Source: a virus
Virus record (IMG/VR): IMGVR_UViG_3300028384_000302
Span: 1 to 24,288 of that record
DNA: 24,288 bases
Reading direction: 5' to 3' (one strand)
Shown: in pieces, positions 2,194 to 22,569 of the stretch
Numbering within the stretch: the stretch's first letter is position 1
Layout: each line of letters begins with the position of its first letter
Program-made: the position numbers and the translations under genes
Notes under the pieces: model-generated
The model's input: the letters and a program-made list of their open reading frames with translations, nothing else
Databases searched by the model: none
What the model was told of the DNA's origin: nothing

Positions 2194-3019
2194 TCTTACA
2201 GATAAGATTGTAAATGATACCAACTCTACTCTAGTTGTCGATGCGTTAAATCTCGCATTTCGATGGAAACACCAAGGACGCACTGATTTTCGATACGAAT
2301 ATCAAAGCACAGTAAAAAGTTTAGCGAAGTCATATGATTGTAGAAATATTATTATTACTGCTGATTGGGGGTCTTCTACTTACCGTAAGGAAATCTCTCC
2401 AGACTATAAGCAGAATCGAAAAGACAAACAAGCCGAACAAAGCGAAGAAGAAAGAATTGCATTCGAAGAGTTCTTCGAAGAGTTCGAAGCCGCACTCGAC
2501 GTACTCGAGGAAGACTACCCAGTCCTCCGATATCGAGGAGTTGAAGCGGATGACGTCGCAGCGCACTTGGTAAAACACAAAGATAAGTACAATTTAGAGT
2601 ACATTTGGCTCATTTCAAGTGATCGTGACTGGGATCTATTGATTCAAGAAAAAGTAGGCCGCTTCTCTTACGTCACAAGAAAAGAAGTACGTTTGGATAA
2701 TTGGAGAGAACATTACGAAGTCACACCAGAAGAGTATATCTCGATGAAGTGTCTTACTGGTGATAAAGGTGATAATGTTCCAGGCATTCCTGGTATCGGC
2801 CCAAAACGAGCAGTACAGCTTATAAGGGACTATGGAGATGCGATGGATATATACAATGCTACGCCTATTGAGAGCAGATACAAATATATTCAGGCACTCA
2901 ATGAAAATGCAGAGCAACTGCTCGTCAATTACGAGCTTATGGATTTGATGACATATTGCGATGATGCAATTGGTCAAGACAATATTGAAGATATTGGGCG
3001 GAAATTAAATGGAAGTTAA
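2183..3019 (+). CDS. 5'-3' exonuclease / flap endonuclease
   Basis: 278 residues, the usual length for phage FEN-type nucleases such as T5 D15 or T4 RNase H. Metal-binding acidic residues occur in order: D20 in VVDALN, D61 in TADW, YKQNR at 75-79 (helical arch), E121/D123/D124 in GVEADD, D147/D149 in SSDRDWD, then TGDKGDNVPGIPGIGPKRA at 192-210. The last block is the helix-3-turn-helix DNA-binding motif with D194 and D197. Known reaction: 5'-3' removal of RNA primers and 5' flaps from nicked duplex. It starts after GGAG at 2172-2175 and overlaps the nuclease gene upstream and nrdA downstream (11 bases), consistent with one operon. High confidence in function; T5-like versus T4-like subfamily not decided. 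Confidence 0.93.
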   Translation: MAFNLTDKIVNDTNSTLVVDALNLAFRWKHQGRTDFRYEYQSTVKSLAKSYDCRNIIITADWGSSTYRKEISPDYKQNRKDKQAEQSEEERIAFEEFFEEFEAALDVLEEDYPVLRYRGVEADDVAAHLVKHKDKYNLEYIWLISSDRDWDLLIQEKVGRFSYVTRKEVRLDNWREHYEVTPEEYISMKCLTGDKGDNVPGIPGIGPKRAVQLIRDYGDAMDIYNATPIESRYKYIQALNENAEQLLVNYELMDLMTYCDDAIGQDNIEDIGRKLNGS

Positions 3020-4310: not shown

Positions 4311-4315
4311 GAATG
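4296..4315 (+). other. nrdA junction: expected segment of about 35 codons absent
   Basis: After the Asn-Thr-Ser codons (4296-4304) come AGCTA and then GGAATGGACAAT, where C-terminal NrdA homology resumes as G-M-D-N-D-E-V-W. Stops occur in both the left frame (TAG 4308-4310) and the right frame (TAG 4304-4306). The junction contains the 8-base palindrome CTAGCTAG (4303-4310). There is no room for an intron or homing endonuclease gene. Confidence 0.75.
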
Positions 4316-4687
4316 GACAATGATGAAGTTTGGAAAAGCATCGTCACAAACGGTGGATCAGTACAGCATCTTGAGTTTCTTGATGACTGGACAAAAGATG
4401 TTTTTAAGACTGCCGTAGAGATTGATCAGCGATGGGTCATTGATATGGCGGCAGATAGACAAAAAGAAATCTGTCAGAGTCAGTCTCTCAATGTCTTCTT
4501 CCCAGCAGATGTATCAAAGCAGGAGCTTCACGCAATTCATATGCAAGCGTGGAAGCAGAAAGTAAAAACGTTATACTACTTGCGAAGCGAAGCATATAAG
4601 CGAGCGGAGAAAGTATCTGACGAGGCGCTACGACAGCGCATTTTTGAATCTATTGATGAAAATGCTTGTCTGGCTTGTGAGGGATAG
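4313..4687 (+). CDS. nrdA: ribonucleoside-diphosphate reductase large subunit, C-terminal part (interrupted nrdA)
   Basis: 124 residues continuing the NrdA fold: TNGGSVQHLEFLDDWTKDVF, a DQRWVIDMAADRQ block, QSLNVFFPADVSKQELH, the paired radical-transfer tyrosines Y88/Y89 in KTLYYLRSEA (E. coli Y730/Y731) and the C-terminal redox pair C119/C122 in ACLACEG that is reduced by glutaredoxin or thioredoxin. It lies in a different frame from the N-terminal part, whose stop is two bases before this ATG. The frame is closed upstream by TAG at 4304-4306, so simple frameshifting cannot join the two. There is no properly spaced ribosome binding site (AGGA touches the ATG), so translation would rely on reinitiation. 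It is either a separately made C-terminal subunit, as in split phage NrdA, or a fragment of a damaged gene. Confidence 0.9.
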   Translation: MDNDEVWKSIVTNGGSVQHLEFLDDWTKDVFKTAVEIDQRWVIDMAADRQKEICQSQSLNVFFPADVSKQELHAIHMQAWKQKVKTLYYLRSEAYKRAEKVSDEALRQRIFESIDENACLACEG

Positions 4688-6666: not shown

Positions 6667-7687
6667 GTGTTGCATTACCAGCATAGATACGATACGTACT
6701 ATCTGCACCATCTAAAACACCTACATTATTTCCGGTACCTGCAGTAATAGTAGTTGCAGAGGATATTTCCGTACCTGTAATAGTGCTTGCTACAATATTT
6801 CCAGCACTAATAGATTGTGCTGTCAATGATCCCGAGAAAGTACCCGTAGCGGCAGAGAGATCGCCCTTAAATACAGCATTTCCATCTGTATCAATATAAA
6901 ACTCTTTGGAGTGTAATGACCCCGCAGAGCGCATTGTAATACCTGCAGAACTATACCCAGAGTTAGAAGTAACCTTTGTGCCTGAGTAAATTGCGTCAGA
7001 GTCAATAGTCCAGCCGCCTGCACTACCATTTATAATATCTCCGCCTTCTTGTAATGGTGCAGCTCCAATTGTACCTAATGCTACCCAATCTACATCAAAA
7101 TCATCTGAAGCTGTATTACCAAAATCAAAACGTAATCCGGTAATATTAGTTGAAGTAATCCAGTCATCGCCCCCTGCACTGAGATTTGACATATCCCACT
7201 CTGCAACTACCCACTCATTTAGAATAGTTGGATCTGGAATTGATTTAGTAAAGGAACCACTTTCTCCATGAGCATTTGCTCCTGTTGTTACATAATATGC
7301 GCTACCTTGCCATTGAGTTCCTCCAGTACGACGAATACGAACTCTTAGAATATGATTCTGAGTACCATCAATAGAAAGCCCTGATCTATCAAATCGAGGA
7401 TCAATAGCAGTCGCGTTTAGACTTAGATATCCTTGGGAATCGTGAGTAAGTGTACCATTATCTAAAACCCATCCTTCAGCGTCTTCTCTGAAGCTCCAAG
7501 CAACACGAGCACCAAACTGTGTGCCTCCTCCTATACTAACACTATCGGAAATTGTACCGCTCGTGGCAGTGATATTACCTGTAATAGTAGCATTTGTAGC
7601 TGTCAGAGCACCCGCTGTGGTGACTCGGAAAGGTGCGCTACCGAATGTATTATTACCTAAATGAATACCACTCGTAGCTACAGATCT
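6632..7687 (-). pseudogene. middle C-terminal module of tail fibre protein J with jelly-roll-like domain, out of frame
   Basis: The minus-strand frame is open from before 7687 to 6632, but there is no credible start: the first ATG with homology is internal, at 7192. In order it encodes VATSGIHLGNNTFGSAPFR, a domain of about 150 residues beginning WSFREDAEGWVLDNGTL and ending FDVDWVALG, which looks like a carbohydrate-binding jelly roll, then GGWTIDSDAIYSGTK, FYIDTDGNAVFKGDLS, GTFSGSLTAQSISAGNI, TITGTEISSATTI and YRIYAGNAT. The last blocks are paralogous to the end of the main J frame and to the module after it. The frame is -1 relative to J. It is probably part of J rather than a separate gene. 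Confidence 0.65.
7555..7685. repeat. 131-bp direct repeat, copy A
   Basis: Partner of 6534-6664. Its right edge (7682-7685) is where the main J frame runs into TAG. A shorter third copy, about 36 bases identical, follows at 7700-7735, offset 119 bases from copy A. Both 119 and 1021 are non-multiples of three, but their sum, 1140, is a multiple. Confidence 0.95.
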
Positions 7688-10600
7688 GTGATATCTCCAG
7701 TAATAGTAGCATTTGTAGCTGTCAGAGCACCCGCTTGAGTGACTCGGAAAGGTGCACTAGAAGCAGTAGCATTACCTGCATAAATACGAATAGTACCTGT
7801 TCCGTCAAGAGCACCGATATTATTTCCGCTACCTGCAATAATTGAAGTGGTAGAACTTATCTCTGTACCTGTAATTGTACTTGCTGCAATTTTTGCCGCA
7901 GTAATCGCATTTGCTTGAATCTTATCCGCAGTAACTGCTGAAGCAGAAAGTTTGTCAGTTGTAATCGCACCTGCCTCAATCTTATCCGCAGTAACTGCTG
8001 AAGCAGAAAGTTTGTCAGTTGTAATCGCACCTGCCTCAATCTTATCCGCAGTAATCACTGAAGCACTAATTGCTGAAGCAGTAATCGCACCTGCCTGAAT
8101 TGCTGAAGCTGTAATCGCTTCTGCCTGGATAAGGCTCGCAGTAATTGAGTCTGCGCGAATATTCAGAGCACCTACTGAAGATGTAGACCCTACAACATCA
8201 ATATGATCTGAAGTACTAAAATCAAGCTCAAGAATTGTACCGCCAGTAATATGACCGTCAATATGGCTCAGGCTTCCGATCATCTTGAATGAGTTGCCTA
8301 CAGGATCAATTATATCTGCTTCTGCAATACCTCCAATTGGGCTTGTAAGAGCATTCGAAAGATCCTTGTGGTGAAGCACTGCATTGGTATTATCCCAAAC
8401 AATATGAGAGTTTGCAGCAGTAAGCTGAGTTGTAGGACGAGTGCCTGCACCTACAAAACTTGCATCGAATACTCGATTGCTGTTTACAGTCAGTGCTCCG
8501 GCATTATTAAAGGTCATTTCATTGCGGCCAGCATACCCTGCCACAATTCCTTGGCCTGCATCCGCAGTCCAGTTATTTGGGTGTGTTATAATATTTACGC
8601 CGCCTTCTGCACCAAGATACAGTATTTCGGAAGCCATATTTCTACCCGCAACGATCTGACTTCGAGCTTCACCAGCACCGATAACTAGTCCATCATCTGC
8701 TCCAAAAGAAACTGCTCCGTTCGAAGAATGACGACGCAGAAGCGTTTTTGTGCCATCAAGAGTGATTAAATTAGACGCAGAAGTAGAAGTATCAAAATTA
8801 AGTGCTCCACCGCTGTTAAGTGTAAGTCCTTTATAAAGTGTGCTGTTTCTCCATTTTTCTACAAAGTAACCACTCTCATCAAAACCGCTATTATAGTTCA
8901 TTAACCAGAGAGAGTTAATTCGGAAGTACATCCCACTAGTATTCGCAGGGTTTGCCAGAGTATAACGTACTTTCTCTACACCGTTTGCATCATTGCCTGA
9001 TACTTGTCGGGCTACTACGTTTTGTTGTTGATCTGTGAGATCACATTCAGTTTGCCATGCTCCGTTTCTGAAAGTTTCAATTTTTACGTCGCGTGCTCGG
9101 AAACTACTATTTCCAAAAGTAATTCCAACAAAAGCAGTGAATAATACCGTAGGGCTAATGTCTTCAATCGTAATAATAACTTGAGAAGTAGAAGAAGATA
9201 CAGTGAATTGAGTTGGTATACTATCTCCAATGAACGCACTATCCGAAATACTTGTGCCAGTACCTCCATTTGTTGCAGTAACGTTAAACTTCTGGTTTGA
9301 ACCTGCAAGACGATTCAGTAGCCCATAGTTTTTGAAGCCATTATCTTCAATTGCAATATTCGGAACCATACCAGATAGAATTGTACCAGTATGATTTGTG
9401 GCAGTCAGACGCCCTACAAGACGATCAGTATATGTCTGAATATATCGCGCACTGTTTGTTATTGTTAGATCAATAAAGTTACTTATACTGTCAGGGTCTT
9501 TTACTCGAGTTGTAATCGCTGTTCCAGATAAGTGCAGATCATTGAAGCGAGCAGTAGAACCTCCTAAATCCAGTGTTCCGTCAAGTGCGGATGTAGGAGA
9601 AAGTTGAGAGTTTGTAAGTACAATAGTTTTTCCGGAATTAGAAAGAAGTAAATTACCACTGTCATTAGTAGAAACACTACCGTTTGTAATACCACCATTT
9701 CTAAAACGCAGGCTTGGACTACCAGTTGAATCATTGATTACAATTTCAGCTTCCGCACCGCTTCCAGAAACTACGAGTGCTTTGTCGGGATCGGTCGTTC
9801 CAATACCAACAAATCCTGTATCACGCTCAAACACAACCGCTTCGAGAACGCTTCCCGAGGTACCTTTCATAACGTCAAGTGCAACTCGTGGAACACCTCC
9901 GCTGGTTGACTTAATCTTCAGTCCTGCTCTCCAGTGAGATGATCCAGCATCTCCCGACTGAAGAACTAAACCAGAGTTTTGGTTGCTTGCATAGTTTCCA
10001 CCGCGAACTGTAAGACCTGTAGATAGATTCGTATCTTCGTTGATACCTACACTCGAAGCAACACCCGCAGCACTTCTACGGAATGTCATCGCATCTTGTA
10101 CTGTACCCCCGGAACTTATCATTGAGAAGTTTACAAGTGCTTCGTCTGAAGTACCACGACCAGCTGTAATTGCAATACCACGATCGTTTGAGTGATTTAT
10201 AATAATTCCGGCCGCAGTATTATCCGCGTCGTTTCCTGCTTGGAACCGAGCGACAATGTTTCTCTGTCCTGTAGTTGTGGGGCCTACTACGTGAAATAAT
10301 GCATCGGCAGAAGATAAGCTATAGTCTCCTAAACCTCCGGGCGACGTAGTGCCTATACCAACATTGCCGTTTTCAGCATTGATAAACATTTTTGTATCTT
10401 GAGCACCATCTTGGAAGTAGATACCTTCACTACCACTTCCTCCGGTACGTAAAACTACATCATCTGCTCCTGCTTTTAATACTAAATCTCCGCCATTAGA
10501 AATTATAGAATAAGCTGAAGTAGCTGCGTCTCCCGCTTGTACTTTTAGTCGTCCATTAACTTCTAGTTTTTCTGACGGTAAAGTAGTACCTATGCCCATA

Positions 10601-13600
10601 CTACCAGTAGAATCTACTCTTACAAACTCGGTCGTTGTAGTTCCATTAAACCCATTAATATTGAAAATACCATTACTTGTATTATTTTGGGTTGTAATTG
10701 ATGTAGATCCGCCGCTTTGAGTAAAGTAAGTCTTCTGATTCGTACCATCTACGTCTGACATTACAATACGAGCGTAACCACCTGCTTTTCCAGCAATATG
10801 AAGCTTGGCTGTATTATCTAGGGATGTATCTGTTCCGAGCATAAAGTTGCTCGTAGTATTGATATAACTATCTCGATTCGATACTGCCGAGATTCGTACA
10901 TTTCCATTTGTAGTAGTAGTCCCACCAGATGCACTTGTTTGAGAGTTTGGCTGACTGTATATAATAAAATCTGTACCACGCTCATCTCCATTAGTTGTTG
11001 CTATAGTTTCCCAAGAGCGTACACGACCACCAGCAGCACTTCCGCGACTTACTAAGAAAGACTGACCATAGCGAGCCGTGTTAATCTCAAGTCGATCATT
11101 ACTGTCATCGTCTGTGTAAATATTATATAAAGGACTATCAGGGTTGTTTGATAAAGTACCTAATTTGAGAACAGCTGCTTCTGCACTACCAGTACCTTCG
11201 CCATATAACCACGTAGTACCATGAACTTCTAATTCTTCTCTTGGATTAGTGGTACCAATCCCTATGAAACCTGTGTTTGAACCACTTCCACTGATAAACA
11301 GTCGAGTTACTTGATTTGTACGAATATTGAGATGGCTTCCATCTAGTGTTCCGAAGTAAGCATCATTAACTCCGCTAAAGAACATCTCATTATTGTCCAT
11401 CGTGATACCGCTTGATGTACCGATACGTAACCAACCATTTGCATAAGTACTAGAACCGATTGTGCCTGTGCCGTTTATAACTACTCCGGCAGCAGTTACA
11501 TCTCGAACATTTACTTTTCCGCCGACTGTTGCTCCGCCGCCAATAACAAGCTCTGCACTGGAGTGCGTTGTGCCGTTTGCTTGTAGTTGCATTTCGGCAC
11601 CGCCACTACCTGTAACAGTCCAGGTTAGCTTATTATCCGTTGCTTGATAGTTCCACCAATTATAAGCGCCATCAACATTATCAAATATAAGCAGACCGGC
11701 TGTGTTACTTGATTCTGTCTTGATAGTAAAGTTTTGCCTATCAACAGTAACTTGACCTTTTCGGAAGAATACATTATTTGTACGAAAGTCTACAGAGCTC
11801 CAATCATTACTTGCATTATCTGCTGAAAGTGAAGCACCTCCAATTACAAGCTGTTGAGTACCTGCCGTTACGGATCGTAAATACGCTGTAGCTCGATTGA
11901 ACTCAATACCGAAGCCACGTACTTCGGTATACGAGTTATCAGAATAATATACACGAGCTCTAGTATCAGTAGTTCCATCCCCCACCTGTAGCGTTGTAGA
12001 GGGATTAGTAGCGCCCCCGATACCGACGTTGCCGCTTGCGTCTATGCGCATCCTCTCGCCGTTGTTGGTATGAAGTGCAATTTCTCGGCTACTACCGAAT
12101 GCTTTTAGATTTAGGTCATCGTTCGCAGTAGTAATCTCAAACACTGTAGTCACGTTATCAGAAGACAGAGTATTTCGGAAACGAATAGCATGGTCATCGT
12201 CATCGGTATTATCATCGAGATTGATTATGCCCGAACCGCCAGTGCCTACGGTTAGTACACCCTGTACAACCGTGTTCCTATTTAGTATCCACTTTGTTCC
12301 ACTGTTAGAGTATAGAATAGAAGCGTCTGCGCCTTCTACAAAGAGACCTGCACCATCTGCCTGTGAGCTAGTTGTAGCGTTTCGTGCAACTGTAATTGTT
12401 TTTGCCGAAACAGATACTACAGAAGAGTCAATTGTAGTAGTTGTACCATTTACATCCAAATCTCCAGAAACAATAAGATTACCTGTTACAGTACCTCCTG
12501 CCGTTGGCAAGTAGCTAGTACTATTGAAAGCGTTTGTACCTAAAACTCGCCTGCCGAGAAGTCCTGCGGTATCGTTCCAAGTTACAACTTCTGTTTCTGC
12601 CGCAGTTGTAGCGATATTAGGAAATCTTATAGCATTTCCATTGAAATCAAGAGCTGCCTCATCAGCACTGGTGCTAGTAAAAGAAACTTTGAATGCTGTT
12701 TCATCAGTAGATGTTCTTATCTCAAAGGGTGTGTCGTCCTCTGCATCAAATATAAAAGAGTTTTCGTAATACGAGAAACGAGTTGCGTTTCCTCCGGCAC
12801 GATACAAACGAGATGCCGGCCCTCCCGCACTGGATGAAGCAAATAGAACTCCGTGATTATTAGCAAAAGTAATTTCACCTGCCGCGCTGTCGTCTACATC
12901 AGAGCGCAGGAACTGGGTACTACTTAAGCCACCCAGTGTACTTGCGTTATCCGCACTTCCAGAACCTACAGTCGTAGTACCAGAAGCAGGTTCAAGTACA
13001 GAAGCTTCAAAGGCTGTTGGCGAAATAGCTAAAGGAGTAGATCCAGTTGATTGAAACTCAATAGCCCAATCATAGTCTGTAGCTTCTGTTAATACATCAA
13101 CTGACTGACTTGAGTAAAGATTTAAAGCATAAATAAACTGACTTTCACCAAACAAATCAATAAAGTATTCATCAATAACCCAGTTAATTGCACTACCCGC
13201 ATTTTGCCAAGCACCAGCGTCATCTGTTCTATACAAGAATTGAGCAGTTCCTGAACGGTTAGCAAGACTATAAGAAAGGAATCCATCCCAAGAGTGAGAA
13301 ATATTTAGAACAAGAGTCTCAACTCCAGGTCCTGCAGTTACATTTGCTACACTACTTCCATTTCCATCTTTATCTAGAGCAAAGAAAGTTGACGCACTTG
13401 TTCCCGAATATTTTGTAGCTGCAGTATTTCGAACGTAGTATCCAGGAAAGGAAGATCCTACAGTGCTACTTACACGTCCGTCAATAAGATTAAGTACATC
13501 TTGTCCGAGAGCGGCGACATTTACACCTCCAGCTTTTACTGAAGTAGCTTCTAAATCTCCTACGATAGCTGCTGAAGAGCTTAGAATTAGAGTTCCATCT

Positions 13601-16600
13601 TGATTAATTCTTACAGAGGAAGCAGATATATCGCCTTTTATTTCAAGACTGCTTCCAGTCCATCGCATACTTTGATTCGAGTCTCCAATATGGAAAAGCG
13701 CGGCTGTACTATTACTCTCATCTGCATCAAAACCTAAGTAGAAACCTGCTGTGGCTGAGTTAGAGTACGAGGTTTTTCCTGCCTTAATATGTCCAAGACC
13801 TGCACTATCTAGAGTGATTTGTCCTGTATTAATATTTGCGCCGTGTATTTCAGTAGTGCCCGCCGCCGATAGATCAGTAAATGAAACTACTCCGGTAAAC
13901 TCTGTGAACTGAATTGCACTCGCGGAATAAGTAACATTTAGAGTAAGGCTCTCCGCGGTAGCTTCCGTGCCAGAGTATCGCAAAATATAGTGTACGTTAC
14001 TGGACGTAGGATCTTGAGTACGAGGCTCGTTTGTCCACACATCTACTCCAGTTCCTATTCCTGTTCCGCTGACAAGACCTGTAGAAAACGTGTAAGTTGT
14101 TCCTGCAGGTGGAGAAGGCTCACCTGAAGTGCTTTCATAATATAGATTGCCTTGCACAGTTCGAAGGCCAGGAGCACCTGCTGAACCGCTCTCTCCATCT
14201 TGAGAAAGAACAACAGGACTGCTCCACTCCGCAGCAAGAACAGTATCAGTAGAAGAAGATCCATCAATACGACCTGCAGCAGTTGCGGCAACTACATAAA
14301 GAGGGTTATTTCCAGAAGGAATTACGCTAGACCAACTATTTCCCAAGTTTGCAGTAATAATTTGTCCAGTAGATAGGCTTACAACAGTATCTCCAGGATT
14401 ACTAGTAAGCGTAGTAGCTGATCGTTGATATGCATATACAACAGCCGTTGTTACACCAGCTTCTCCTGCCGAACCGCTAGTTCCATCTTTTAATTTGGAA
14501 AGATTGAAAGAAATGCCTCTCTGAGCAGCAGTATTTGAAGCTTCTCGAACACTTGCAGTAATTGTTTGCAGACTATTACTGTCGTATGCTACTGCACCAT
14601 TAGAGTCTGCTGTGAAACTATAGACTGTGGGATCTGCAGTATTCGAAGTAGTAAACGTAGATACGTCTGTACCGTCCAAACCTCCCGTTGTTGTAATTCT
14701 AAACTCAGGTGAAGTAAATCCAATTGCAGATACTGTTGCTGTTATTGCAGAAGGAGTATTTGTTTGAGATCCTGACGAGTCATATGTTAAGCTAGAGGGG
14801 GATACGTTAATTTGTACCGAACGCCCTGTAGAAATACTTTCGTCGATTGTAATAAACTTCTCTACGGAGTACACTGCTGAAGTAGATTCAGTTACGTGTG
14901 CAATTGCTGCGTCTAAGTCGTAATCTGGTCGATAGTCGTACACGTGTGCTGCTACAGAAGTGAGCGCACTACTGAATGTTCTATCAATTCTTAATTCTGT
15001 ATCTGAGATAATCGCAGTTACGAAAGCACCCTTCGCACTATTACTAAAGTCAAGACCTTCTAGCTTAAGTAGATCATTCACTTGTATAGTAGAGTTTGAA
15101 ACAAAGTTAGTTCCAGTTACAGTAGTAGTATTCGCAGAAATACTTACATTTCCTACGGAAGTCCATCCACTTGAAAGAGAGGCATTCCCTGTTCCTGCGT
15201 CTCTCCAATACTCTACATCTCGTATAGCTTCTGCTTCCCATTTTACTAGTTTAATAACGGAAGCACTTTGATCTAAAACAATGTAATAATCTTCTTGGAA
15301 CTCTACATCTGCAAAAGACAGCGTATTATTAGTAGTAGTAACAAGAGTTTCTTTATCGCCCACAGAAGAAGCCACGAAAGCCGCATCAAGAAAAGCAAAA
15401 TCTGTAGAAGTAGTTAAACCTGCAGGACTACTAGATAAAATACCTTTTGGCATACCGCCTTGTACTCTATCAACATTTTGCTTATATTTGTCTCGAATAG
15501 CATAAGGTAAACTTATCCAATCAGATACATTACCTTTTGCAGATACGGCACGAATCTTAAATAGATAGTCTCCATTTGGCACATCAGAAAAAGCTAGGCT
15601 TCCTCCTTTTGTAGTTAAAGTTTGCGGCCTTCCGGGAACATTATGACGAACCTCATAGCCTGATAAATAAGAGATTGTACTTTCACTGGCAGGAGGAAGA
15701 GGATTATCCCACTCTAATAAGAAATTACGAGGACTTAGTGTTCCTTTGGGCAAAACTACTCGAACATTTCGAGGAACAGGAATGTTTGCAGGCTCTTTGT
15801 CTGCGTAAATTGTATCAGGCAAGTATCCTAGAGTATAATTTTTATCTACTGCATCATACTTTTCGTTGTAGTGCTCTACACCACTTACAGTGTACTCATT
15901 GTTACCATCTTCAGTTATTGACAGTACTTTATACTCTTTGAACGAGCCATTGACCTCTAAAGAATCACTAGTTTCTTTCAGTGCCCAAACTGTTTGAGGA
16001 GAAGGGACAACATTAAATGCGGTTACAGAAATAGTATCAGTATTTCCAGAGCTAGTAGTTACCGCATTGTTTTCAATATAAGTATAAGGTTTCCATACTG
16101 TAGGAACAAGCTCTCCGCCAGAAGCCGCAGTAAACGCATTTGAAGCAGCAGACTCTGAATCTAAAGCCGTTAAAGTTCCATTTACAAACGCTTCTGGTAT
16201 TCTTTGACCGGGCTCATAAACTACTGAGTTAATTGTTACTGAATCTGTATCTGCTAAGAATGCCGCAGGTTGCGCAACAAGAGTACTCAACTCATAAGTT
16301 GATCCAAAGTTTAACTCAATTGTTCTATCAAGTTTAATAGTTGTAAGGGCGTCTACATATGTACCTGGAACGGTCTGCTGATTGTAATAACGTAAGTTTG
16401 TAGTGGGAGGCACAGGCCAAGCATTAGTAGAATAGTTACCTGCAGTAGAGCCATTAGACTCGCCCCATCCGCCAGCATCTCCACCTGACCAAGTTCCTCC
16501 AAGAGAGGTATTTGTTTCGTTTACATAAAGTATGTTGTCAATCCAAAGACGTATAGTTCCTGGGCTATTTACAAACTCCCAGACAACAGTATGCGTTCCT

Positions 16601-19227
16601 CCATCAAACTGAGGAATCTTCGAGATTGGTACTTCTGCAATAATAACATCTGTTGCTACTGGAGTGGGTGAACCGTCTCCTGCTCGAATTACAAGATTGT
16701 ACTCTCCGCTAATCTGTCGAACACCGACCCAACATCCTTGACCTGTAGCACCATGCTCAAAAAGAACTGCATCTTGAGTGAAAGTCGAAGGAAGCACTGC
16801 TTGTCCTCCGAAGATTGCAGGCTGACTTCTCTCAGTAACTGTAAACTCTGATCCGTTAACTTGTCCCGGAGTAATAGTACGAGAAAGTGTTAGAGTTCCT
16901 TCAGGGTCTGTTCCTTTTGACACTCGACCACTGTATTGTAAACCATAACGATCTGCGTCTTGAACATTAATAACATCGCCAGGTTTTATATACTGAGCAG
17001 CAAGAGATGTTTTAAATTGTACTATCTCAGTCTGATTTTGAGCTGTCCACAACTTCCATCGACCATATCGGTACGCTTGTGCTTCAGAAGTCGCACCAAA
17101 TGCTACGGCGGCTTCTGATATAATTCGTCCTGCTTTCAGAATAGCATTACGATCCTCTACGATTAAAGGAACCGGAGCAAAGTTTGCTTCTGGATCGTTC
17201 CAAGTTACAACTACTTGGTTAACTCGTGTACGTGCACCTGTGCTCTCATACGCAAAAGAACCATCAATTACATTTCCTTTTGTAAAGTTATATACAGGAT
17301 CTTGTGGAGCATCTTGGACTGCAACAAGTTTACTATTCTGCCAATACATTATTCCAAGGAAGACTGTTGCCATATCCTTTAAAACTTTGTAAACATCTGT
17401 CGCTTTTGTGAGGAAAATATTTGAGCGGAAACGTGGCTCTAATCCACCACTCCCATCGTCTACTAGCTCGTCACAATATCGAGCAACACGATACAGAGCA
17501 TACTTATCTATCTGCTCTTCAGTCATCCACTTTCCTGCTCCGTAACGATTATTTATTACTATATCGTAAAATACCCAAGCAGGGTTATCAGTGTAGTACT
17601 TTGCTTCTCTGAATGTTCCGTCCCAGAATCCTTCGTACTTTGCTACACCATCTTTCGTATATTCTCTAGGAGTGTAGGTATTTGGAATCTGAACTTTTAA
17701 TCCTTCCAGCAAATAGCTTCGTGGAGGTAAGCTGTCGTAATCTGCCGAGTCAAAAGATAAAGACACTAATGAGCTGTAAGGGTAAGCAAGCCTATCCTTG
17801 ATTACAGCACCCATAGCAGAAATAGCGGCAGTACCATTCATCTGCCACTTTTTCTTGTTACCGTCAATATCGTTTGCAGTTCCTCTACTTGTTCCGTCAC
17901 TTCTTACTGGAATACCGATTTGACGAGTAGCCCGCATAATTCTTATCTGAAAATCAGAGAAAGGACGGTACTGATTGATATTAATTGTGTGTTCGAAATC
18001 TACAGGAGAGCTTGTATTGCCTTTATGCTTGATATAAGTTCCTTCGTTCGGGAATAGCTGAACAAAGTTACCCCAAGATCCACTTCCGTCTCCTGTATAA
18101 GAATCCTCCTTGAAACGTATTTCCATCTTATAAAATGCGTATGCATCTTCTTTATCTCCTTTCTGCAGGTTAATTACCTGTAAAGAAGGATAACGAATAG
18201 TAAATGAAATCTCATCTGCTTCTGCAAGTTTTGCTTCAGTATTTAAACCAAAGTTAGCCGCATTCAAATAAGTGGGTTGCGTAGTTGCATACTCATCTAT
18301 ATCGGGGTTTCCAGGGTACGCTTTTTTATCAGTTCCTTGTATGTTTGGAAGTCCATTAATATCAATAGGTGAAAAAGTGTCGCCATTATAAGTACCGGCT
18401 TTTAATATTCTCAAGTCTTGTGTAGACGGAGGAGTTCCTTCAATACCGATTGCTGCTCCTACGCCGCCTACTTCATTTAGAGGAGTTTGATAAAGAGTAC
18501 CGCTTCTGAACTGTACGTTAATATCATTAATTTTAGGAGCAAAAAGTCCTTCATTAAACGTTTGTGCTCCTGTATCATTTACTTGATTTTGGTTTGTTAT
18601 ATAAAAGTTATAAGTACCATCAGGGACTGTACCTACAACCGTTAAAGTGCTATTACTTGTAAACTCAGTGATTCTAAACGCTTTTGCTAAACCAATATTC
18701 CAATCTGTTTTTGTTACATCAATACCTGTAGGAGCAGTTGCCGTGAATAACCCGTTAGGCTGACTTCCAGAAATTACTCCAAAAGTTCCCTTAATAGTCT
18801 GACCCTCTCGATAAAGGTATACTGATTTATTTGTGTAATTACCTAAAGTTCCCCACTCCGCTGTTGTAAAAGGAGCGCCTGTAATTGCAGATGCACTATA
18901 TCTTTCTCTACCGTTTCCTACAAAGTTAGAGGAAAGGCTTACTGCGTGTGATTCATAACGAGTAAGAACTAACGATCTTCCTAGTTCAGGATTGAATACT
19001 AAGTTTGCAGGTAAATCTTCAGAGGTTGTTCCAACCCCTGATACAAAAGTAATAAGTCCTGATGATACAGTACTAACGGGAATATATTTAGAAAACTTAC
19101 CGTCATCTACTGCTACATCATCAATATACACGCCCTGTAAATCCCCGACAAGACCTCGAATAGGTCCTTCGCATATTAAGTCTACAGCGTTAATATTTTG
19201 GGTTTTACTTCCTGTTCTTTCTGCCAT
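7678..19227 (-). CDS. J: giant tail-tip/host-specificity protein J fused to a long tail fibre
   Basis: 3849 residues. Residues about 1-780 follow lambda J: a start SKTQNINAVDLICEGPIRGL, then SYLLEGLKVQIPNTY, DNPAWVFYDIVINNRYGAG and IKPGDVINVQDADR, the baseplate-hub-like part. About 790-950 is a LamG/ConA-like insertion (VVWEFVNSPGTIRLWIDN). About 1150-1245 is a fibronectin type III domain (FLLEWDNPLPPAS). Near 2100 lies the fibre motif NASTLGGLSSTQFL. Residues about 2400-3150 hold five spaced GxxGIGTT-P repeats (e.g. GFIGIGTTNPREELEV). About 3690-3790 holds tandem A-[DS]-x-I-x-A-x-AIT repeats. A moderate ribosome binding site (AGGA) precedes ATG 19227. It would form the trimeric tail tip and contact the host receptor. 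The frame ends at GDITDL just where homology continues in another frame, so the real protein is probably about 4370 residues. Confidence 0.9.
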   Translation of the reverse strand: MAERTGSKTQNINAVDLICEGPIRGLVGDLQGVYIDDVAVDDGKFSKYIPVSTVSSGLITFVSGVGTTSEDLPANLVFNPELGRSLVLTRYESHAVSLSSNFVGNGRERYSASAITGAPFTTAEWGTLGNYTNKSVYLYREGQTIKGTFGVISGSQPNGLFTATAPTGIDVTKTDWNIGLAKAFRITEFTSNSTLTVVGTVPDGTYNFYITNQNQVNDTGAQTFNEGLFAPKINDINVQFRSGTLYQTPLNEVGGVGAAIGIEGTPPSTQDLRILKAGTYNGDTFSPIDINGLPNIQGTDKKAYPGNPDIDEYATTQPTYLNAANFGLNTEAKLAEADEISFTIRYPSLQVINLQKGDKEDAYAFYKMEIRFKEDSYTGDGSGSWGNFVQLFPNEGTYIKHKGNTSSPVDFEHTININQYRPFSDFQIRIMRATRQIGIPVRSDGTSRGTANDIDGNKKKWQMNGTAAISAMGAVIKDRLAYPYSSLVSLSFDSADYDSLPPRSYLLEGLKVQIPNTYTPREYTKDGVAKYEGFWDGTFREAKYYTDNPAWVFYDIVINNRYGAGKWMTEEQIDKYALYRVARYCDELVDDGSGGLEPRFRSNIFLTKATDVYKVLKDMATVFLGIMYWQNSKLVAVQDAPQDPVYNFTKGNVIDGSFAYESTGARTRVNQVVVTWNDPEANFAPVPLIVEDRNAILKAGRIISEAAVAFGATSEAQAYRYGRWKLWTAQNQTEIVQFKTSLAAQYIKPGDVINVQDADRYGLQYSGRVSKGTDPEGTLTLSRTITPGQVNGSEFTVTERSQPAIFGGQAVLPSTFTQDAVLFEHGATGQGCWVGVRQISGEYNLVIRAGDGSPTPVATDVIIAEVPISKIPQFDGGTHTVVWEFVNSPGTIRLWIDNILYVNETNTSLGGTWSGGDAGGWGESNGSTAGNYSTNAWPVPPTTNLRYYNQQTVPGTYVDALTTIKLDRTIELNFGSTYELSTLVAQPAAFLADTDSVTINSVVYEPGQRIPEAFVNGTLTALDSESAASNAFTAASGGELVPTVWKPYTYIENNAVTTSSGNTDTISVTAFNVVPSPQTVWALKETSDSLEVNGSFKEYKVLSITEDGNNEYTVSGVEHYNEKYDAVDKNYTLGYLPDTIYADKEPANIPVPRNVRVVLPKGTLSPRNFLLEWDNPLPPASESTISYLSGYEVRHNVPGRPQTLTTKGGSLAFSDVPNGDYLFKIRAVSAKGNVSDWISLPYAIRDKYKQNVDRVQGGMPKGILSSSPAGLTTSTDFAFLDAAFVASSVGDKETLVTTTNNTLSFADVEFQEDYYIVLDQSASVIKLVKWEAEAIRDVEYWRDAGTGNASLSSGWTSVGNVSISANTTTVTGTNFVSNSTIQVNDLLKLEGLDFSNSAKGAFVTAIISDTELRIDRTFSSALTSVAAHVYDYRPDYDLDAAIAHVTESTSAVYSVEKFITIDESISTGRSVQINVSPSSLTYDSSGSQTNTPSAITATVSAIGFTSPEFRITTTGGLDGTDVSTFTTSNTADPTVYSFTADSNGAVAYDSNSLQTITASVREASNTAAQRGISFNLSKLKDGTSGSAGEAGVTTAVVYAYQRSATTLTSNPGDTVVSLSTGQIITANLGNSWSSVIPSGNNPLYVVAATAAGRIDGSSSTDTVLAAEWSSPVVLSQDGESGSAGAPGLRTVQGNLYYESTSGEPSPPAGTTYTFSTGLVSGTGIGTGVDVWTNEPRTQDPTSSNVHYILRYSGTEATAESLTLNVTYSASAIQFTEFTGVVSFTDLSAAGTTEIHGANINTGQITLDSAGLGHIKAGKTSYSNSATAGFYLGFDADESNSTAALFHIGDSNQSMRWTGSSLEIKGDISASSVRINQDGTLILSSSAAIVGDLEATSVKAGGVNVAALGQDVLNLIDGRVSSTVGSSFPGYYVRNTAATKYSGTSASTFFALDKDGNGSSVANVTAGPGVETLVLNISHSWDGFLSYSLANRSGTAQFLYRTDDAGAWQNAGSAINWVIDEYFIDLFGESQFIYALNLYSSQSVDVLTEATDYDWAIEFQSTGSTPLAISPTAFEASVLEPASGTTTVGSGSADNASTLGGLSSTQFLRSDVDDSAAGEITFANNHGVLFASSSAGGPASRLYRAGGNATRFSYYENSFIFDAEDDTPFEIRTSTDETAFKVSFTSTSADEAALDFNGNAIRFPNIATTAAETEVVTWNDTAGLLGRRVLGTNAFNSTSYLPTAGGTVTGNLIVSGDLDVNGTTTTIDSSVVSVSAKTITVARNATTSSQADGAGLFVEGADASILYSNSGTKWILNRNTVVQGVLTVGTGGSGIINLDDNTDDDDHAIRFRNTLSSDNVTTVFEITTANDDLNLKAFGSSREIALHTNNGERMRIDASGNVGIGGATNPSTTLQVGDGTTDTRARVYYSDNSYTEVRGFGIEFNRATAYLRSVTAGTQQLVIGGASLSADNASNDWSSVDFRTNNVFFRKGQVTVDRQNFTIKTESSNTAGLLIFDNVDGAYNWWNYQATDNKLTWTVTGSGGAEMQLQANGTTHSSAELVIGGGATVGGKVNVRDVTAAGVVINGTGTIGSSTYANGWLRIGTSSGITMDNNEMFFSGVNDAYFGTLDGSHLNIRTNQVTRLFISGSGSNTGFIGIGTTNPREELEVHGTTWLYGEGTGSAEAAVLKLGTLSNNPDSPLYNIYTDDDSNDRLEINTARYGQSFLVSRGSAAGGRVRSWETIATTNGDERGTDFIIYSQPNSQTSASGGTTTTNGNVRISAVSNRDSYINTTSNFMLGTDTSLDNTAKLHIAGKAGGYARIVMSDVDGTNQKTYFTQSGGSTSITTQNNTSNGIFNINGFNGTTTTEFVRVDSTGSMGIGTTLPSEKLEVNGRLKVQAGDAATSAYSIISNGGDLVLKAGADDVVLRTGGSGSEGIYFQDGAQDTKMFINAENGNVGIGTTSPGGLGDYSLSSADALFHVVGPTTTGQRNIVARFQAGNDADNTAAGIIINHSNDRGIAITAGRGTSDEALVNFSMISSGGTVQDAMTFRRSAAGVASSVGINEDTNLSTGLTVRGGNYASNQNSGLVLQSGDAGSSHWRAGLKIKSTSGGVPRVALDVMKGTSGSVLEAVVFERDTGFVGIGTTDPDKALVVSGSGAEAEIVINDSTGSPSLRFRNGGITNGSVSTNDSGNLLLSNSGKTIVLTNSQLSPTSALDGTLDLGGSTARFNDLHLSGTAITTRVKDPDSISNFIDLTITNSARYIQTYTDRLVGRLTATNHTGTILSGMVPNIAIEDNGFKNYGLLNRLAGSNQKFNVTATNGGTGTSISDSAFIGDSIPTQFTVSSSTSQVIITIEDISPTVLFTAFVGITFGNSSFRARDVKIETFRNGAWQTECDLTDQQQNVVARQVSGNDANGVEKVRYTLANPANTSGMYFRINSLWLMNYNSGFDESGYFVEKWRNSTLYKGLTLNSGGALNFDTSTSASNLITLDGTKTLLRRHSSNGAVSFGADDGLVIGAGEARSQIVAGRNMASEILYLGAEGGVNIITHPNNWTADAGQGIVAGYAGRNEMTFNNAGALTVNSNRVFDASFVGAGTRPTTQLTAANSHIVWDNTNAVLHHKDLSNALTSPIGGIAEADIIDPVGNSFKMIGSLSHIDGHITGGTILELDFSTSDHIDVVGSTSSVGALNIRADSITASLIQAEAITASAIQAGAITASAISASVITADKIEAGAITTDKLSASAVTADKIEAGAITTDKLSASAVTADKIQANAITAAKIAASTITGTEISSTTSIIAGSGNNIGALDGTGTIRIYAGNATASSAPFRVTQAGALTATNATITGDITDL
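7921..8054. repeat. 60-bp tandem repeat inside J
   Basis: Two perfect 60-base copies, 7921-7980 and 7981-8040, then a 14-base start of a third that continues as a degenerate copy. They encode a 20-residue unit with the pattern ADKIEAGAITTDKLSASAVT. The length keeps frame, so copy number could change without breaking J. Confidence 0.97.
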
Positions 19228-19247: not shown

Positions 19248-20552
19248 TTACTTGTTATGGGTAACTACGCCGTTTGCGATATATGTATTATCGCCTGTTA
19301 CTTTAATTGTGAATACTTCTGCTGAAGGCATATCCTGTACTTCCAAAGATTCTACAAGAACTGTAAGTCCATTATGCATTACTAAGTTTAATCCTTCTAC
19401 TAGTGGTATAATTCCTAAATCGTCTTCTTGTACGTTTTGTGCTGCTTCTGGATCTGCAGCGGCCCAGCCTTCTGTAGTCATTACAGGGTGAGAATCTGTC
19501 ATAAACAAGAGTCCATCATTTACTGAAATAACGCTAGAAACACCAAAACTTCTTGTGGACAGAACAGTATTTTCTGCACCATCTCCAGCAAGTACTAAAT
19601 CTCCTACAACTATATCTTCAATAGCAACCAAGCCTCTATTAGTTGTTAAAATCTCTGTTCCTGCTAATAAACAGTTGTCATCATACTGATTGTCATCCGC
19701 TGGAAGGCCGGGGCTTCCATCTGGATTTGTTTCTGGTGGATTAGGATCTGAGCTTGGAACGGTATCTCCCTCATCTGTGTTTGTACCGGCCTGCGACTGG
19801 CCCCCATCATTATAGAACGCCCGCTGTCTATTTCTCTGTTGGAAACTTACTAAACGTCCTGGAACTCTTAGTTTTCCGTACAAAATAGGAACAGGATCTC
19901 CTTCAATTATGGTTTGACCGCTTCCCTGAAATAAGTAAGAATCTTCCTGTTCATCACCTGCAGGATCGGGAGCAAGTAGTTTTTGTAATCCAGCAACCGC
20001 TAAGTTTGCAATAATACCATATCCCATCTGCTTTGCAACGCCTGCAAGAGTAAGTCCTTCTTTTGCTGCTGCAGCCCCCTGAGCACCTCCAGCGGCTCCA
20101 GCGGCTCCTCCAGCGGCTCCTCCAGCGGCTCCTGCACCTCCAGCGGCACCTCCAGCGGCTCCTGCACCTCCAGCGGCACCTCCAGCACTACCTGCACTAC
20201 CTGCTGCTGCAGCGGTACCCGTGCCTGCTGTTGCTACAGTAATAACTACGATTGCCGCAATTGCTGCTAACGCCTTTGCTCCGTCAGACTTTGATCCTAC
20301 AGGCCGAGGACTTATATAGAAATCCCCTTCCGTAAACTTCATTACTGTTTCTTCTTCTCGAGCAAGAGGTGTATTCCCTACCCGACACATAAAACCAATT
20401 CCTTTTTCTTCGCAGTCAAGAATGTACTTGCGAACTCCATTAAAATTAGCTTCAAGACAGCTAAAGACATCCATAATTGTAGATGCCTCCATTGAAAGCT
20501 CAGTGCCATACTTTGCTCCCAGTTCTCCGTCTAAAAATACTTTACGTTTCAT
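19248..20552 (-). CDS. I: tail assembly protein I with C-terminal Hint (intein-like) domain
   Basis: 434 residues. Residues 1-90 and the motif VPILYGKLRVPGRLVSF (221-237) are those of lambda gpI-like tail assembly proteins; an Ala/Gly-rich, partly hydrophobic stretch (about 90-163) lies between. Residues 294-433 form a Hint domain: C294 starts CLLAGTEILTT, IEDIVVGDLVLAG follows, T352-x-x-H355 is block B (TDSHPV), and the end is TYIANGVVTHN, then K434 and stop. The Hint catalytic residues (first Cys, TxxH, terminal His-Asn) are all present, but the residue after Asn is Lys, not Cys/Ser/Thr, so splicing is unlikely. Cleavage, as in bacterial intein-like proteins, is possible. The start overlaps K by 11 bases; J starts 20 bases downstream. 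Lambda I is about half this length. Domain calls are strong; the processing is inference. Confidence 0.9.
   Translation of the reverse strand: MKRKVFLDGELGAKYGTELSMEASTIMDVFSCLEANFNGVRKYILDCEEKGIGFMCRVGNTPLAREEETVMKFTEGDFYISPRPVGSKSDGAKALAAIAAIVVITVATAGTGTAAAAGSAGSAGGAAGGAGAAGGAAGGAGAAGGAAGGAAGAAGGAQGAAAAKEGLTLAGVAKQMGYGIIANLAVAGLQKLLAPDPAGDEQEDSYLFQGSGQTIIEGDPVPILYGKLRVPGRLVSFQQRNRQRAFYNDGGQSQAGTNTDEGDTVPSSDPNPPETNPDGSPGLPADDNQYDDNCLLAGTEILTTNRGLVAIEDIVVGDLVLAGDGAENTVLSTRSFGVSSVISVNDGLLFMTDSHPVMTTEGWAAADPEAAQNVQEDDLGIIPLVEGLNLVMHNGLTVLVESLEVQDMPSAEVFTIKVTGDNTYIANGVVTHNK
20084..20190. repeat. Ala/Gly-coding low-complexity repeat in gene I
   Basis: Short GC-rich repeats of CCTCCAGCGGCT type. 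A 30-base unit at 20131-20160 is followed by a near-complete second copy at 20161-20187. It encodes alternating GGA/GAAGGA residues of protein I (about 121-157). GC is far above the rest of the window. Confidence 0.9.
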
Positions 20553-21228
20553 GTCTATAAATACTCATTAGGTGCTTACCCCAGAAAGGGTATAAAGACT
20601 CTCGACAAGAGAGTCTGTTTACAGCGTGGTGAAAAAACACATCATCTCCAAGATATACTCCACAATGATTTCCTACTTCAGACTTTACATTGAAAATAAG
20701 TATATCGTTTTTTCGTGCTTCTTCTACTCTTCGAAATCCCCACTGCCCCAGAACTTCATCGTTAAAATAATCTAATCCTTTTTCCCACCAATCGTCTTCA
20801 AAAGAACCGCGGGCAGGAACATTTATCCCTTCGTTTGCGAGCCAGTCTCTCATTGCTTCAAAGCAATCTGTAACTCCAAACTTATACTCTCTTCCTATAA
20901 GAGGGTGAAATACTTGCTTTGGTTCTACTATATTTAATTCCATTTCTGGGTAACTAAAAATATAGTAAGGTATTCCCATTGCATTACAGCTATCTATATC
21001 GTACTGACTTGGTTTATTGCTTGCGTCAGGATGGCTGTGTACTACTGCTATTATATCTGATTGCTGTCTTGCATTTATCCAGTCTTCAGACGATATCACA
21101 AAATCATCATCATTCTCTGCTACGTTTCTGCAAGGGAACCACCTCTTTTCCCCCTTTACTACTCCTATTACGCCGCAACCTTCTCTTGGATATTCTTGTT
21201 CAAAATGCTCTTCAATCTCACGAATCAT
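20542..21228 (-). CDS. K: tail tip assembly peptidase K (JAMM plus NlpC/P60)
   Basis: 228 residues with two peptidase domains as in lambda gpK. The N-terminal JAB/MPN (JAMM) domain has E16 in PREGCGVIGV and the zinc motif H64-x-H66 with S74 and D77 (VVHSHPDASNKPSQYD). The C-terminal NlpC/P60 domain has catalytic C122 in VTDCFEAMRDWL and H188 in NHCGVYLG, with a following FFHHAV strand. Known or proposed roles: processing during tail tip assembly and local peptidoglycan cleavage at infection. The start overlaps the L stop (ATGA), and the stop overlaps the start of I. All catalytic residues that I can recognise are present, so both domains should be active. Confidence 0.94.
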   Translation of the reverse strand: MIREIEEHFEQEYPREGCGVIGVVKGEKRWFPCRNVAENDDDFVISSEDWINARQQSDIIAVVHSHPDASNKPSQYDIDSCNAMGIPYYIFSYPEMELNIVEPKQVFHPLIGREYKFGVTDCFEAMRDWLANEGINVPARGSFEDDWWEKGLDYFNDEVLGQWGFRRVEEARKNDILIFNVKSEVGNHCGVYLGDDVFFHHAVNRLSCRESLYPFWGKHLMSIYRHET

Positions 21229-22172
21229 CTAAACTTCTTCGTTCCTGGGAACGCTCCAAAAGGTAGAGGAGTTGAAGTATCTAAATTAGTATTGCTATTA
21301 TTTCCTTGGAATCGAATCTTACAAGAGTTTAAAAGTTTTCCGCATAAGTCTACTCTTTCCCAGTATATAGGATTTGCAGACGGCTCTTTGTTCAGTGGAA
21401 CAGTTCGTACTGCCTCCCAAACTTGTATATAACCATTTGTATCTGTTTGTACTCTATCTCCTGCCACATAGCTAGAGTTATCTGAACTCCAAGTAGCAGT
21501 TGCTGAAATATTTATACTGCTATCAGAAACAGTAAAGAATCTTCCATTTCCATCAAGAGGCCAAGTACATCCACCGTCTGATGCGAGTTCTACGCCTTGA
21601 TATCTCCAAGAGCAGTACTTACCTACTACTAGCCTATTTGGAAGCACAACTCCTTCAATATCCATAGGACTTGCAAGTTCAAATTGTACTACAATATTAC
21701 TCTCTGAAGAAACTCGATCAATGTAATACGTATGAGTAGGAAACTCTGTCGGCAAAGCGGCAGCTGCGCCAGAGCTTTGAGTATACTTTAACAAGGTTCG
21801 ACGATAAGTTACTTTCGTATTGATAAGATCATCGTTTCTTGCTACACCTTCCGCTTCGAGAATGTCGAGCATTGTGTCTTCGTTTGATGCAATACTTCTT
21901 GTAATCGTTGGCAAGTTTGCAAGTGATAAAGTCGGACGAGACTGAGGCCCGTCACTGTTTAACTCAATTCCATCTATTTCAATTGGGATTGCAACGTACT
22001 CATTCAAAACGGTGCCCGCTTTGTTCGAAAAGTATATGCTATCTGTTCCTTGCTCTAAACCGTTGTGTAGGTGTATTTCATTACCGCTCGGCAAGACTAA
22101 ATCAAAGAGCTCGACAAGAGCATCTCCTACAGATTGTAGTTGCACTGTATTAATTAAATCTAATTCTGACAT
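21225..22172 (-). CDS. L: tail tip protein L with Fe-S cysteines and a CBM-like insertion
   Basis: 315 residues. The N-terminal two thirds (IPIEIDGIELNSDGPQSRPT, ASPMDIEGVVLPNRLV) match lambda gpL-type tail tip proteins. The four conserved cysteines that bind a [4Fe-4S] cluster in lambda gpL are at C187 (GKYCSWRYQG), C202 (GGCTWPL), C277 and C284 (DLCGKLLNSCKIRF). Between C202 and C277 there are about 75 residues, far more than in lambda. They include WSSDNSSYVAGDRV, YIQVWEAVR and PIYWERV, a pattern like chitin-binding modules of CBM families 5/12. The C-terminal LPFGAFPGTKKFR is typical of L. It plugs the tail tip between tape measure and J. The start is two bases from the M stop, and its stop overlaps K. 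Confidence 0.92.
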   Translation of the reverse strand: MSELDLINTVQLQSVGDALVELFDLVLPSGNEIHLHNGLEQGTDSIYFSNKAGTVLNEYVAIPIEIDGIELNSDGPQSRPTLSLANLPTITRSIASNEDTMLDILEAEGVARNDDLINTKVTYRRTLLKYTQSSGAAAALPTEFPTHTYYIDRVSSESNIVVQFELASPMDIEGVVLPNRLVVGKYCSWRYQGVELASDGGCTWPLDGNGRFFTVSDSSINISATATWSSDNSSYVAGDRVQTDTNGYIQVWEAVRTVPLNKEPSANPIYWERVDLCGKLLNSCKIRFQGNNSNTNLDTSTPLPFGAFPGTKKFR

Positions 22173-22173
22173 A

Positions 22174-22569
22174 TTATGGCTCGTATACTCTTACAAAAGT
22201 TGTCGAGAGAGTGTGAGTACCTTCTCTCGCGTATCCAATATTATAGCCTTGAGAGATTACTTTTAGCGTCGTATCGCCTGATTGATCTGTAACGGTAAAG
22301 TCAAAGCTGTCTGCGGCTTTCGCATCTAAGTATGCTGCAAGTAAGTTTATACTTGAAGCAGATCTATTTTTAAATGACACATTAAATGCATCATTCTTTG
22401 TATTGATTCCGTCAAGCACTCTTTGCTGGTATCCGTCTCCGAAAGCTGCAGTAAGTACTCGATGTGAAGTAGAGCGGCCCATGCCTCTATCGACAGTGTA
22501 CTCAATAGGAGCCGCAGGGACTCCGCTCGATACTCCATTTGTGGGAATTGTGAGTGAAAATTGTGCCAT
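22174..22569 (-). CDS. M: minor tail protein M
   Basis: 131 residues, the size of lambda gpM (about 109) plus a short N-terminal extension. It contains the family blocks HRVLTAAFGDGYQQRVLDGI, NVSFKNRSASSINLLAAYLD and DFTVTDQSGDTTLKVISQG with a final THTLSTTFVRVYEP, typical of phage minor tail M proteins. It forms part of the tail tip together with L. The ATG overlaps the tape measure stop by one base (TAATG), so translation is coupled. Gene order H-M-L-K-I-J supports the assignment. Confidence 0.9.
   Translation of the reverse strand: MAQFSLTIPTNGVSSGVPAAPIEYTVDRGMGRSTSHRVLTAAFGDGYQQRVLDGINTKNDAFNVSFKNRSASSINLLAAYLDAKAADSFDFTVTDQSGDTTLKVISQGYNIGYAREGTHTLSTTFVRVYEP

Follow-up and report, generated by a model that had tools for sequence, protein, structure and literature searches.

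A Hint domain ending in His-Asn-Lys on the tail tip protein gpI of a marine phage, and related domains on other phage proteins

Inteins, Hedgehog proteins, BIL domains and polymorphic toxins all include Hint domains. The window analyzed here (the whole stretch of 24,288 nucleotides, from a virus described as a marine phage) encodes such a domain at the C-terminus of its tail assembly protein I (gpI), where a single lysine and then the stop codon take the place of the intein nucleophile and the C-extein. The question is what a Hint domain of this kind could do on a protein of the phage tail tip.

The gpI gene and its C-terminal Hint domain

The tail genes of the window follow the order M-L-K-I-J. 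The features relevant to gpI are listed below.

22174..22569, minus strand: gene M-like minor tail protein (Phage_min_tail, E 1e-16)
21225..22172, minus strand: gene L-like minor tail/hub protein (Phage_tail_L, E 9e-25)
20542..21228, minus strand: gene K, JAB plus NlpC/P60 peptidase (Pfam Prok-JAB, 1e-13; NLPC_P60, 1.5e-10)
19248..20552, minus strand: gene I, an ORF of 434 aa for gpI, the tail tip assembly/plug protein, with the Hint at its C-terminus (phrog_32; 8iyk profile match)
20298..20552, minus strand: N-terminal ubiquitin-like (beta-grasp) domain of gpI, approximately residues 1-85 (modeled strands and helices, pLDDT 73-90)
19824..20015, minus strand: conserved TAPI-C/plug region of gpI, approximately residues 180-243 (alignment of 16 homologues; homologous to the lambda plug region by the 8iyk profile match, PMC10721106)
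19674..19823, minus strand: variable Pro/Asp/Asn-rich linker of gpI, residues 244-293, 50 residues (16-homologue alignment; no secondary structure predicted)
19251..19673, minus strand: Hint domain of gpI, residues 294-434 (Pfam, phmmer, profile, AlphaFold2, Foldseek)
19671..19673, minus strand: Cys294, the Hint Cys1 and putative thioester residue (invariant in Hint alignments A1 and A2)
19488..19499, minus strand: block B, T352-x-x-H355 (T and H both conserved to 90% or more in Hint alignment A2)
19254..19259, minus strand: His432-Asn433, the Asn cyclization pair (invariant in Hint alignment A1)
19251..19253, minus strand: Lys434, codon AAG, the sole residue after Asn433 (sequence; +1 Lys counts in phage Hints)
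19248..19250, minus strand: stop codon TAA, directly 3' of Lys434 (sequence)
7678..19227, minus strand: gene J-like central hub/fiber protein, 3849 aa (Phage-tail_3, E 7e-20; after I as in lambda)

The host protein has the features of a lambda-type tail assembly protein I: a ubiquitin-like N-domain, a plug/TAPI-C region and a gene located between K and J. Its N-terminal part matched phrog_32, the family of tail assembly protein I (E 5e-24), and the lambda gpI structure 8iyk was retrieved with a profile of protein I homologues (E 3e-14). The columns P195-D196-P197, G218, P220, Y225-G226, R229 and P231-G232-R233 were invariant among the 16 homologues. The protein I family has been described as ubiquitin-like at its N-terminus, with gpK as the predicted processor of that domain (PMC1779556); the JAB module of gpK in the window carries an HSHP motif with SxxD downstream. 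The J-like hub would be the partner of gpI in the tail tip. Elsewhere in the window, on the plus strand, the large subunit of ribonucleotide reductase is split between two ORFs (3009-4310 and 4313-4687) that match phrog_84 at 187-676 and 697-795, the second beginning 2 bases past the end of the first.

The Hint domain comprises 141 aa (CLLAGTEIL...TDSHPVMTTEGW...GDNTYIANGVVTHNK*, translated ORF), with the motif stretches CLLAGTEIL, TDSHPV and YIANGVVTHNK, the last followed by TAA, and contains neither an insertion nor a homing endonuclease domain. Searched as a single sequence, it gave a weak Pfam match under the cut-off (Hint_2, E 3.5e-4), while phmmer of gpI against the PDB retrieved the gp41-1 intein (3.9e-5) and the Clostridium BIL 2lwy (8e-4). 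A profile built from 42 relatives matched 2lwy at 5e-29 and the BIL2 domain of BUBL1 at 1.5e-23. The structure prediction proposed in an earlier, sequence-only reading of this DNA yielded a Hint fold: the AlphaFold2 model, made on the alignment of relatives, had a pLDDT of 97 and a pTM of 0.89, and its best Foldseek matches in the PDB included 6y75/6tmm (BIL2, E 8e-11), 6qaz (gp41-1 intein, 6e-9) and 2lwy. A model of full-length gpI had an overall pLDDT of 49 and was used for the N-domain and linker only; its Hint part was poor because gpI homologues lack the domain. From the agreement of the phmmer matches, the 42-relative profile and the AlphaFold2 model, the predicted Hint fold in gpI is certain.

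The sequence-only reading had described a complete Hint/intein-like domain appended to protein I, and this description held: its coordinates were exact, the fold was recovered by profile, AlphaFold2 and Foldseek, and the N-part belongs to phrog_32. C294, T352/H355, H432-N433, K434 and the stop are each as it stated in the translated ORF, and it was also right that a splicing nucleophile is lacking, the +1 residue being Lys, then stop, with no Cys, Ser or Thr. The predicted beta-fold, Cys1 and TxxH place the domain in the Hint (Hedgehog/intein) superfamily; the terminal His-Asn with a +1 residue other than Cys/Ser/Thr, and the location in the variable gpI linker with no homing endonuclease, are features of an A-type BIL. 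It does not qualify as a class 1 intein, having no ligatable C-extein beyond the terminal Lys, nor as a BUBL-type Hint positioned directly behind a ubiquitin-like domain, as the latter covers residues 1-85 and the Hint begins at 294. Read-through of the stop, fusing I to J, was rejected: past the TAA, the frame meets a second TAA ahead of the start of J (SLRKL*), and J is read in a different frame.

The same reading had proposed a survey of I homologues for the domain. A gpK-based search provided 80 tail loci, 71 with a complete gpI gene, and none of these 71 homologues beside a related gpK carried a Hint (by regex or HMM). Whole-gpI searches of viral contigs and of cultured phages likewise returned no other gpI with a Hint, and the gpI of the window is the only one known to bear it across the viral contigs, cultured phages and 80 gpK loci covered. 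The Hint on gpI is an accessory, not a core part of protein I. Hint-less homologues terminate within the same variable linker (16-homologue alignment) and are mostly 219-287 aa long, so that cutting at N293/C294 would leave a near-ordinary gpI of 293 aa.

Two of the 71 complete gpI proteins have other C-terminal additions at the place of the Hint, namely Big_9/cadherin repeats in L132 (E 8e-48) and a long repeat-like tail with no Pfam match in L103, and the gpI tail is therefore a site of domain gain. The Hint could accordingly be regarded as one more surface module, which stays unprocessed and chemically silent on gpI as Ig/cadherin-like repeats would on other gpI proteins; these additions in relatives, and a variable linker as the natural site for gaining a domain, both favor such a display role, which is weighed below against the conservation of the domain.

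The sequence-only reading had further held that gpI is not found in the mature lambda tail, as in older literature (PMC1779556), and had pictured a self-processing step in such a protein as a new timing device. Neither point is supported. In lambda, two cryo-EM studies, together with mass spectrometry, locate a trimer of gpI at the tip of the mature tail; it is resolved there as a plug beneath the tape measure protein, and its later strands run between the gpJ hub domains and FNIII (PMC10721106, PMC11101478); since gpI remains resident in the mature tip, the frame of a transient factor is wrong.

A terminal lysine in phage Hint domains

Relatives of the gpI Hint were collected from phages by scans that used N-terminal or block-B motifs and were blind to the C-terminus, with an HMM score of at least 80 required. 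Among 42 non-redundant phage Hints the +1 residue was Lys (34 Hints), Arg (3), Ile (2) or, once each, Gly, Leu or Ala. These counts are drawn from related and hence not independent sequences, for which reason a binomial value calculated on them is no true probability, and they were scored by an HMM itself built from mostly Lys+1 Hints. Only one of 11 bacterial Hint homologues had Lys at +1, the other residues being A, T, S, I, E, M and Q. That one (L198, on a Flaviramulus contig) is a 1554-aa protein whose terminal Hint ends HNKLGY-stop, and is possibly from a prophage. The Lys+1 phage Hints share a mean pairwise identity of 40% (minimum, 21%) and occur mostly on uncultured-virus contigs. Judged from these comparisons, the terminal lysine is a signature of a wider phage Hint class and not an incidental leftover.

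Bacterial leucyl/phenylalanyl transferase marks N-terminal Lys and Arg for ClpAP. With Lys the commonest and Arg the next commonest +1 residue, cleavage might conceivably serve to expose an N-degron; HNK-stop proteins, however, would free a mere lysine, and in the proteins with N-terminal Hints described below the hub itself would be destabilized, which makes this idea barely credible.

In a tree of the domains with weakly supported deep branches, 2lwy fell among bacterial Hints (99/84), apart from the phage Hints with Lys+1. The window Hint appeared as sister to L001 (93/65), a weak placement; given this and the weak deep forks, we argue neither for one origin of Lys+1 nor for several separate gains. 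A hand-typed Hint consensus searched against phages found mostly inteins in helicases or terminases and hypothetical proteins, and was left out of the evidence. The literature searched (subscription journals and preprints being outside its scope) contained no report of phage-tail Hints or of Lys+1 BILs. A "Hint domain containing protein" is already annotated in uncultured Caudovirales, and many predicted phage Hint proteins are present in BFVD. Since the domain type is known and phage Hints have been annotated before, while the Lys+1 HNK-stop class is not in the literature searched, we regard the class as a variant of a known domain.

Protein-ending Hints were sought with a pattern that leaves the final residue free, [N]G[IVM][IVM]VHN-X-stop. 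It matched 20 stretches; X was Lys, encoded by both AAA and AAG, in all 16 that bear a Hint, of which some are near-copies, and the remaining four were short chance ORFs. A search for HN followed directly by stop gave one match, which was not a Hint, and no Hint ending HN-stop. The two open patterns (16/16 HNK-stop, 0 HN-stop) rule against a chance origin, and indicate that the +1 Lys is selected.

In total, 21 non-redundant HNK-stop Hints were found on seven unrelated N-exteins, of which the window gpI is one. The others are as follows (L186, a truncated copy of the largest family, is not counted separately).

L001: protein with a T4-type baseplate-wedge domain
L252: J-like protein (hub), weak Phage-tail_3 match
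L283: virion structural protein, phrog_10938
L005 and relatives: largest family, 600-790 aa, with one or more tandem Hints
L218 and L229: two proteins of no recognized kind

Beyond gpI, no fewer than six unrelated proteins of virion type from uncultured phages would then have this ending. For the L005 family the virion role is putative, and the genes that flank it (L005, L006, L024, L015) belong to almost no known families. In tandem arrays (L005:4123-6474, L011, L195, L191, L180, L181), Hint1 ends LAHN-R or LVHN-R and Hint2 ends HNK-stop; Hint1 is itself preceded by a further ...VHN-AP end, which may mark a third Hint that has degenerated. The +1 residue of inner Hints may be Arg, Leu, Ile, Phe, Gly or Ala, and Lys is therefore not required at every position.

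This recurrence bears on the suggestion that the gpI Hint is the remnant of a mobile intein, its C-extein lost and the element on its way out. Phage Hints that have lost the C-terminal His-Asn do exist (L052, L068, L076 and those of Achromobacter phages JWF and 2-1). In gpI, however, the splicing motifs are all intact, no endonuclease domain is present and the Hint lies in a variable linker instead of a conserved active site; the same exact HNK-stop end on seven unrelated proteins likewise makes a remnant very improbable.

Other class members are N-terminal. In L220 (4126-), L239 (1762-), L246 and L281 the Hint is preceded by Met-Cys or Met-Cys-Cys only, and in L261 and L266 by Met-Gly-Gly-Gly-Ser. 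These Hints end HNK-GG(G) and are followed by a region resembling the gpI plug and a J-type hub (phrog_31 for L239). As they precede plug-J, and the window Hint follows the gpI plug, Hints of this class cap one and the same tail-tip module at one end or the other. GNAT-like genes apparently lie directly upstream of several of these hub genes (by eye).

The residue before Cys1 (-1) was Cys, Ser or Thr in 33 of 44 Lys-class Hints, compared with four of 44 at position -2 and a background of 17%; in the window gpI it is Asn (N293), unlike the usual residues of the class. Both junctions therefore look selected, as the -1 residue is constrained in addition to the +1 Lys. Pairs of closely related Hints had dN/dS values of 0.12-0.36, which indicates that they are under purifying selection. 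In 12 of the 44 the -1 residue is Cys, forming a vicinal Cys-Cys1 pair (L185, L195, L002, L181, L193, L229, L180, L220, L252, L239, L246, L268), conceivably a redox switch of the thioester.

The active site and the residues on either side of the domain are all constrained, and we infer that this would be difficult to account for unless a reaction took place at each junction. A silent surface module on gpI is for this reason unlikely: all catalytic residues and the +1 Lys are kept, both junctions are constrained and dN/dS is low, while a binding module has no need of Cys1, the block B His, His-Asn and Lys jointly.

Candidate reactions of the gpI Hint

The reading we prefer, at a probability of roughly 55% from sequence and model, is that of an active autoprocessing domain, in which Cys294 would form a thioester with Asn293 and the Hint would then leave a 293-residue gpI. 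The separation might be hydrolytic, or Lys434 might attack first and Asn433 then cyclize, which would amount to excision with a one-residue C-extein; Lys434 would act either as the acyl acceptor before Asn cyclization or as a residue needed for the geometry of the junction. That Asn and Lys are conserved with only one residue following makes sense chiefly if a C-terminal reaction matters. Conservation of catalytic residues would not by itself prove cleavage in vivo. In lambda the C-terminal strands of gpI run between the gpJ hub domains towards FNIII, so a C-terminal addition would most likely lie towards the outside of the tip; if gpI of the window is similarly oriented, the event would take place on the outer side of the tail tip, during or after assembly with gpJ.

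A more specific version is that the side-chain amine of the +1 Lys takes the N-extein from the Cys1 thioester, whereupon Asn cyclization frees the Hint, a separate class of splicing. The product would be a lysine attached through an isopeptide bond or, for internal copies, a C-extein joined in that way, and virions would make covalent links of their own. Arg cannot serve as an acyl acceptor as Lys does, and its presence at +1 of certain inner Hints favors a role in charge or geometry, at least there. We consider a true Lys acceptor quite unlikely.

Alternatively, the domain may act as a ligase that passes the Cys294 thioester to a lysine of gpJ, of a fiber or of a host surface protein, fixing gpI covalently. 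The top structural match, BIL2 of BUBL1, is reported to make Lys isopeptide bonds, conjugating ubl4 to ubl5 and Ras (PMC8616854); with a one-residue C-extein the fate of the N-extein alone matters; the C-terminus of lambda gpI lies among gpJ domains (PMC10721106); and members of the class are found on tail and baseplate proteins. On the other hand, BIL2 has Met at +1, so the common fold does not bring the Lys signature, the N-terminal Hints of L220, L239, L246 and L281 have an N-extein of about Met-Cys and hence nothing to ligate, and no acceptor lysine could be pinpointed. Ligation by gpI appears rather unlikely on balance. Release of the Hint and ligation through the C294 thioester, both put forward in the sequence-only reading, remain the best mechanisms on offer, the precedent for ligation being by analogy with BIL2 (PMC8616854).

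The recurrence of HNK-stop suggests that phage particles may host a self-processing or ligation chemistry that is so far unstudied. No function was stated in the literature searched for a Hint class on virion-type proteins with a near-invariant Lys at the place of the intein nucleophile and often no C-extein. If any of the processing or ligation readings is true, phage tails hold a self-processing or self-linking step that is absent from models of their assembly, and a new tool for Lys-directed ligation may be possible.

Comparison with known systems

Lambda gpI (8iyk) has the same ubiquitin-like N-terminus, hydrophobic region, plug and K-I-J gene order as the window gpI; unlike the latter, it ends at residue 223 without a Hint. 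In Achromobacter phages JWF and 2-1 a Hint is located in a tail-fiber-like protein beside the hub gene, but it lacks the terminal His-Asn and +1 Lys, and is neither on gpI nor C-terminal. The JWF domain is annotated as a Hom_end-associated Hint. The tail-fiber-like proteins of L068, L076, L086, JWF and 2-1 (L328) have a Cys-rich lead (CNCNCAC or CNCDCNCS), with Cys1 present and no terminal His-Asn.

The gp41-1 intein (6qaz) and other mini-inteins have the Hint fold and motifs in common with the gpI domain; the latter differs in the absence of Cys/Ser/Thr at +1, in having no C-extein past one Lys and in its position outside the conserved site of an enzyme. The best profile match, the A-type BIL 2lwy of Clostridium thermocellum (5e-29), shares with the gpI Hint a His-Asn end without a +1 nucleophile. 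BILs sit in variable regions of non-conserved proteins (PMC7765530), a location that the gpI Hint resembles. In contrast to gpI, the bacterial BIL-like homologues have varied +1 residues, and none was found to end one residue past Asn.

The closest structural relative is BIL2 of BUBL1 from Tetrahymena thermophila (6y75, 6tmm), the best Foldseek match (E 8e-11, TM 0.84) and the second-best profile match. BIL2 is eukaryotic and not a virion protein, has Met rather than Lys at +1, and is flanked by Ubl domains on both sides, whereas in gpI some 200 residues separate the ubiquitin-like domain from the Hint, which is C-terminal and has a single residue behind its Asn. BIL2, solved as the C1A-N143A variant, has Cys1, the block B His and the His-Asn end in common with the gpI Hint, as well as a +1 residue other than Cys, Ser or Thr, and it too accompanies ubiquitin-like domains.
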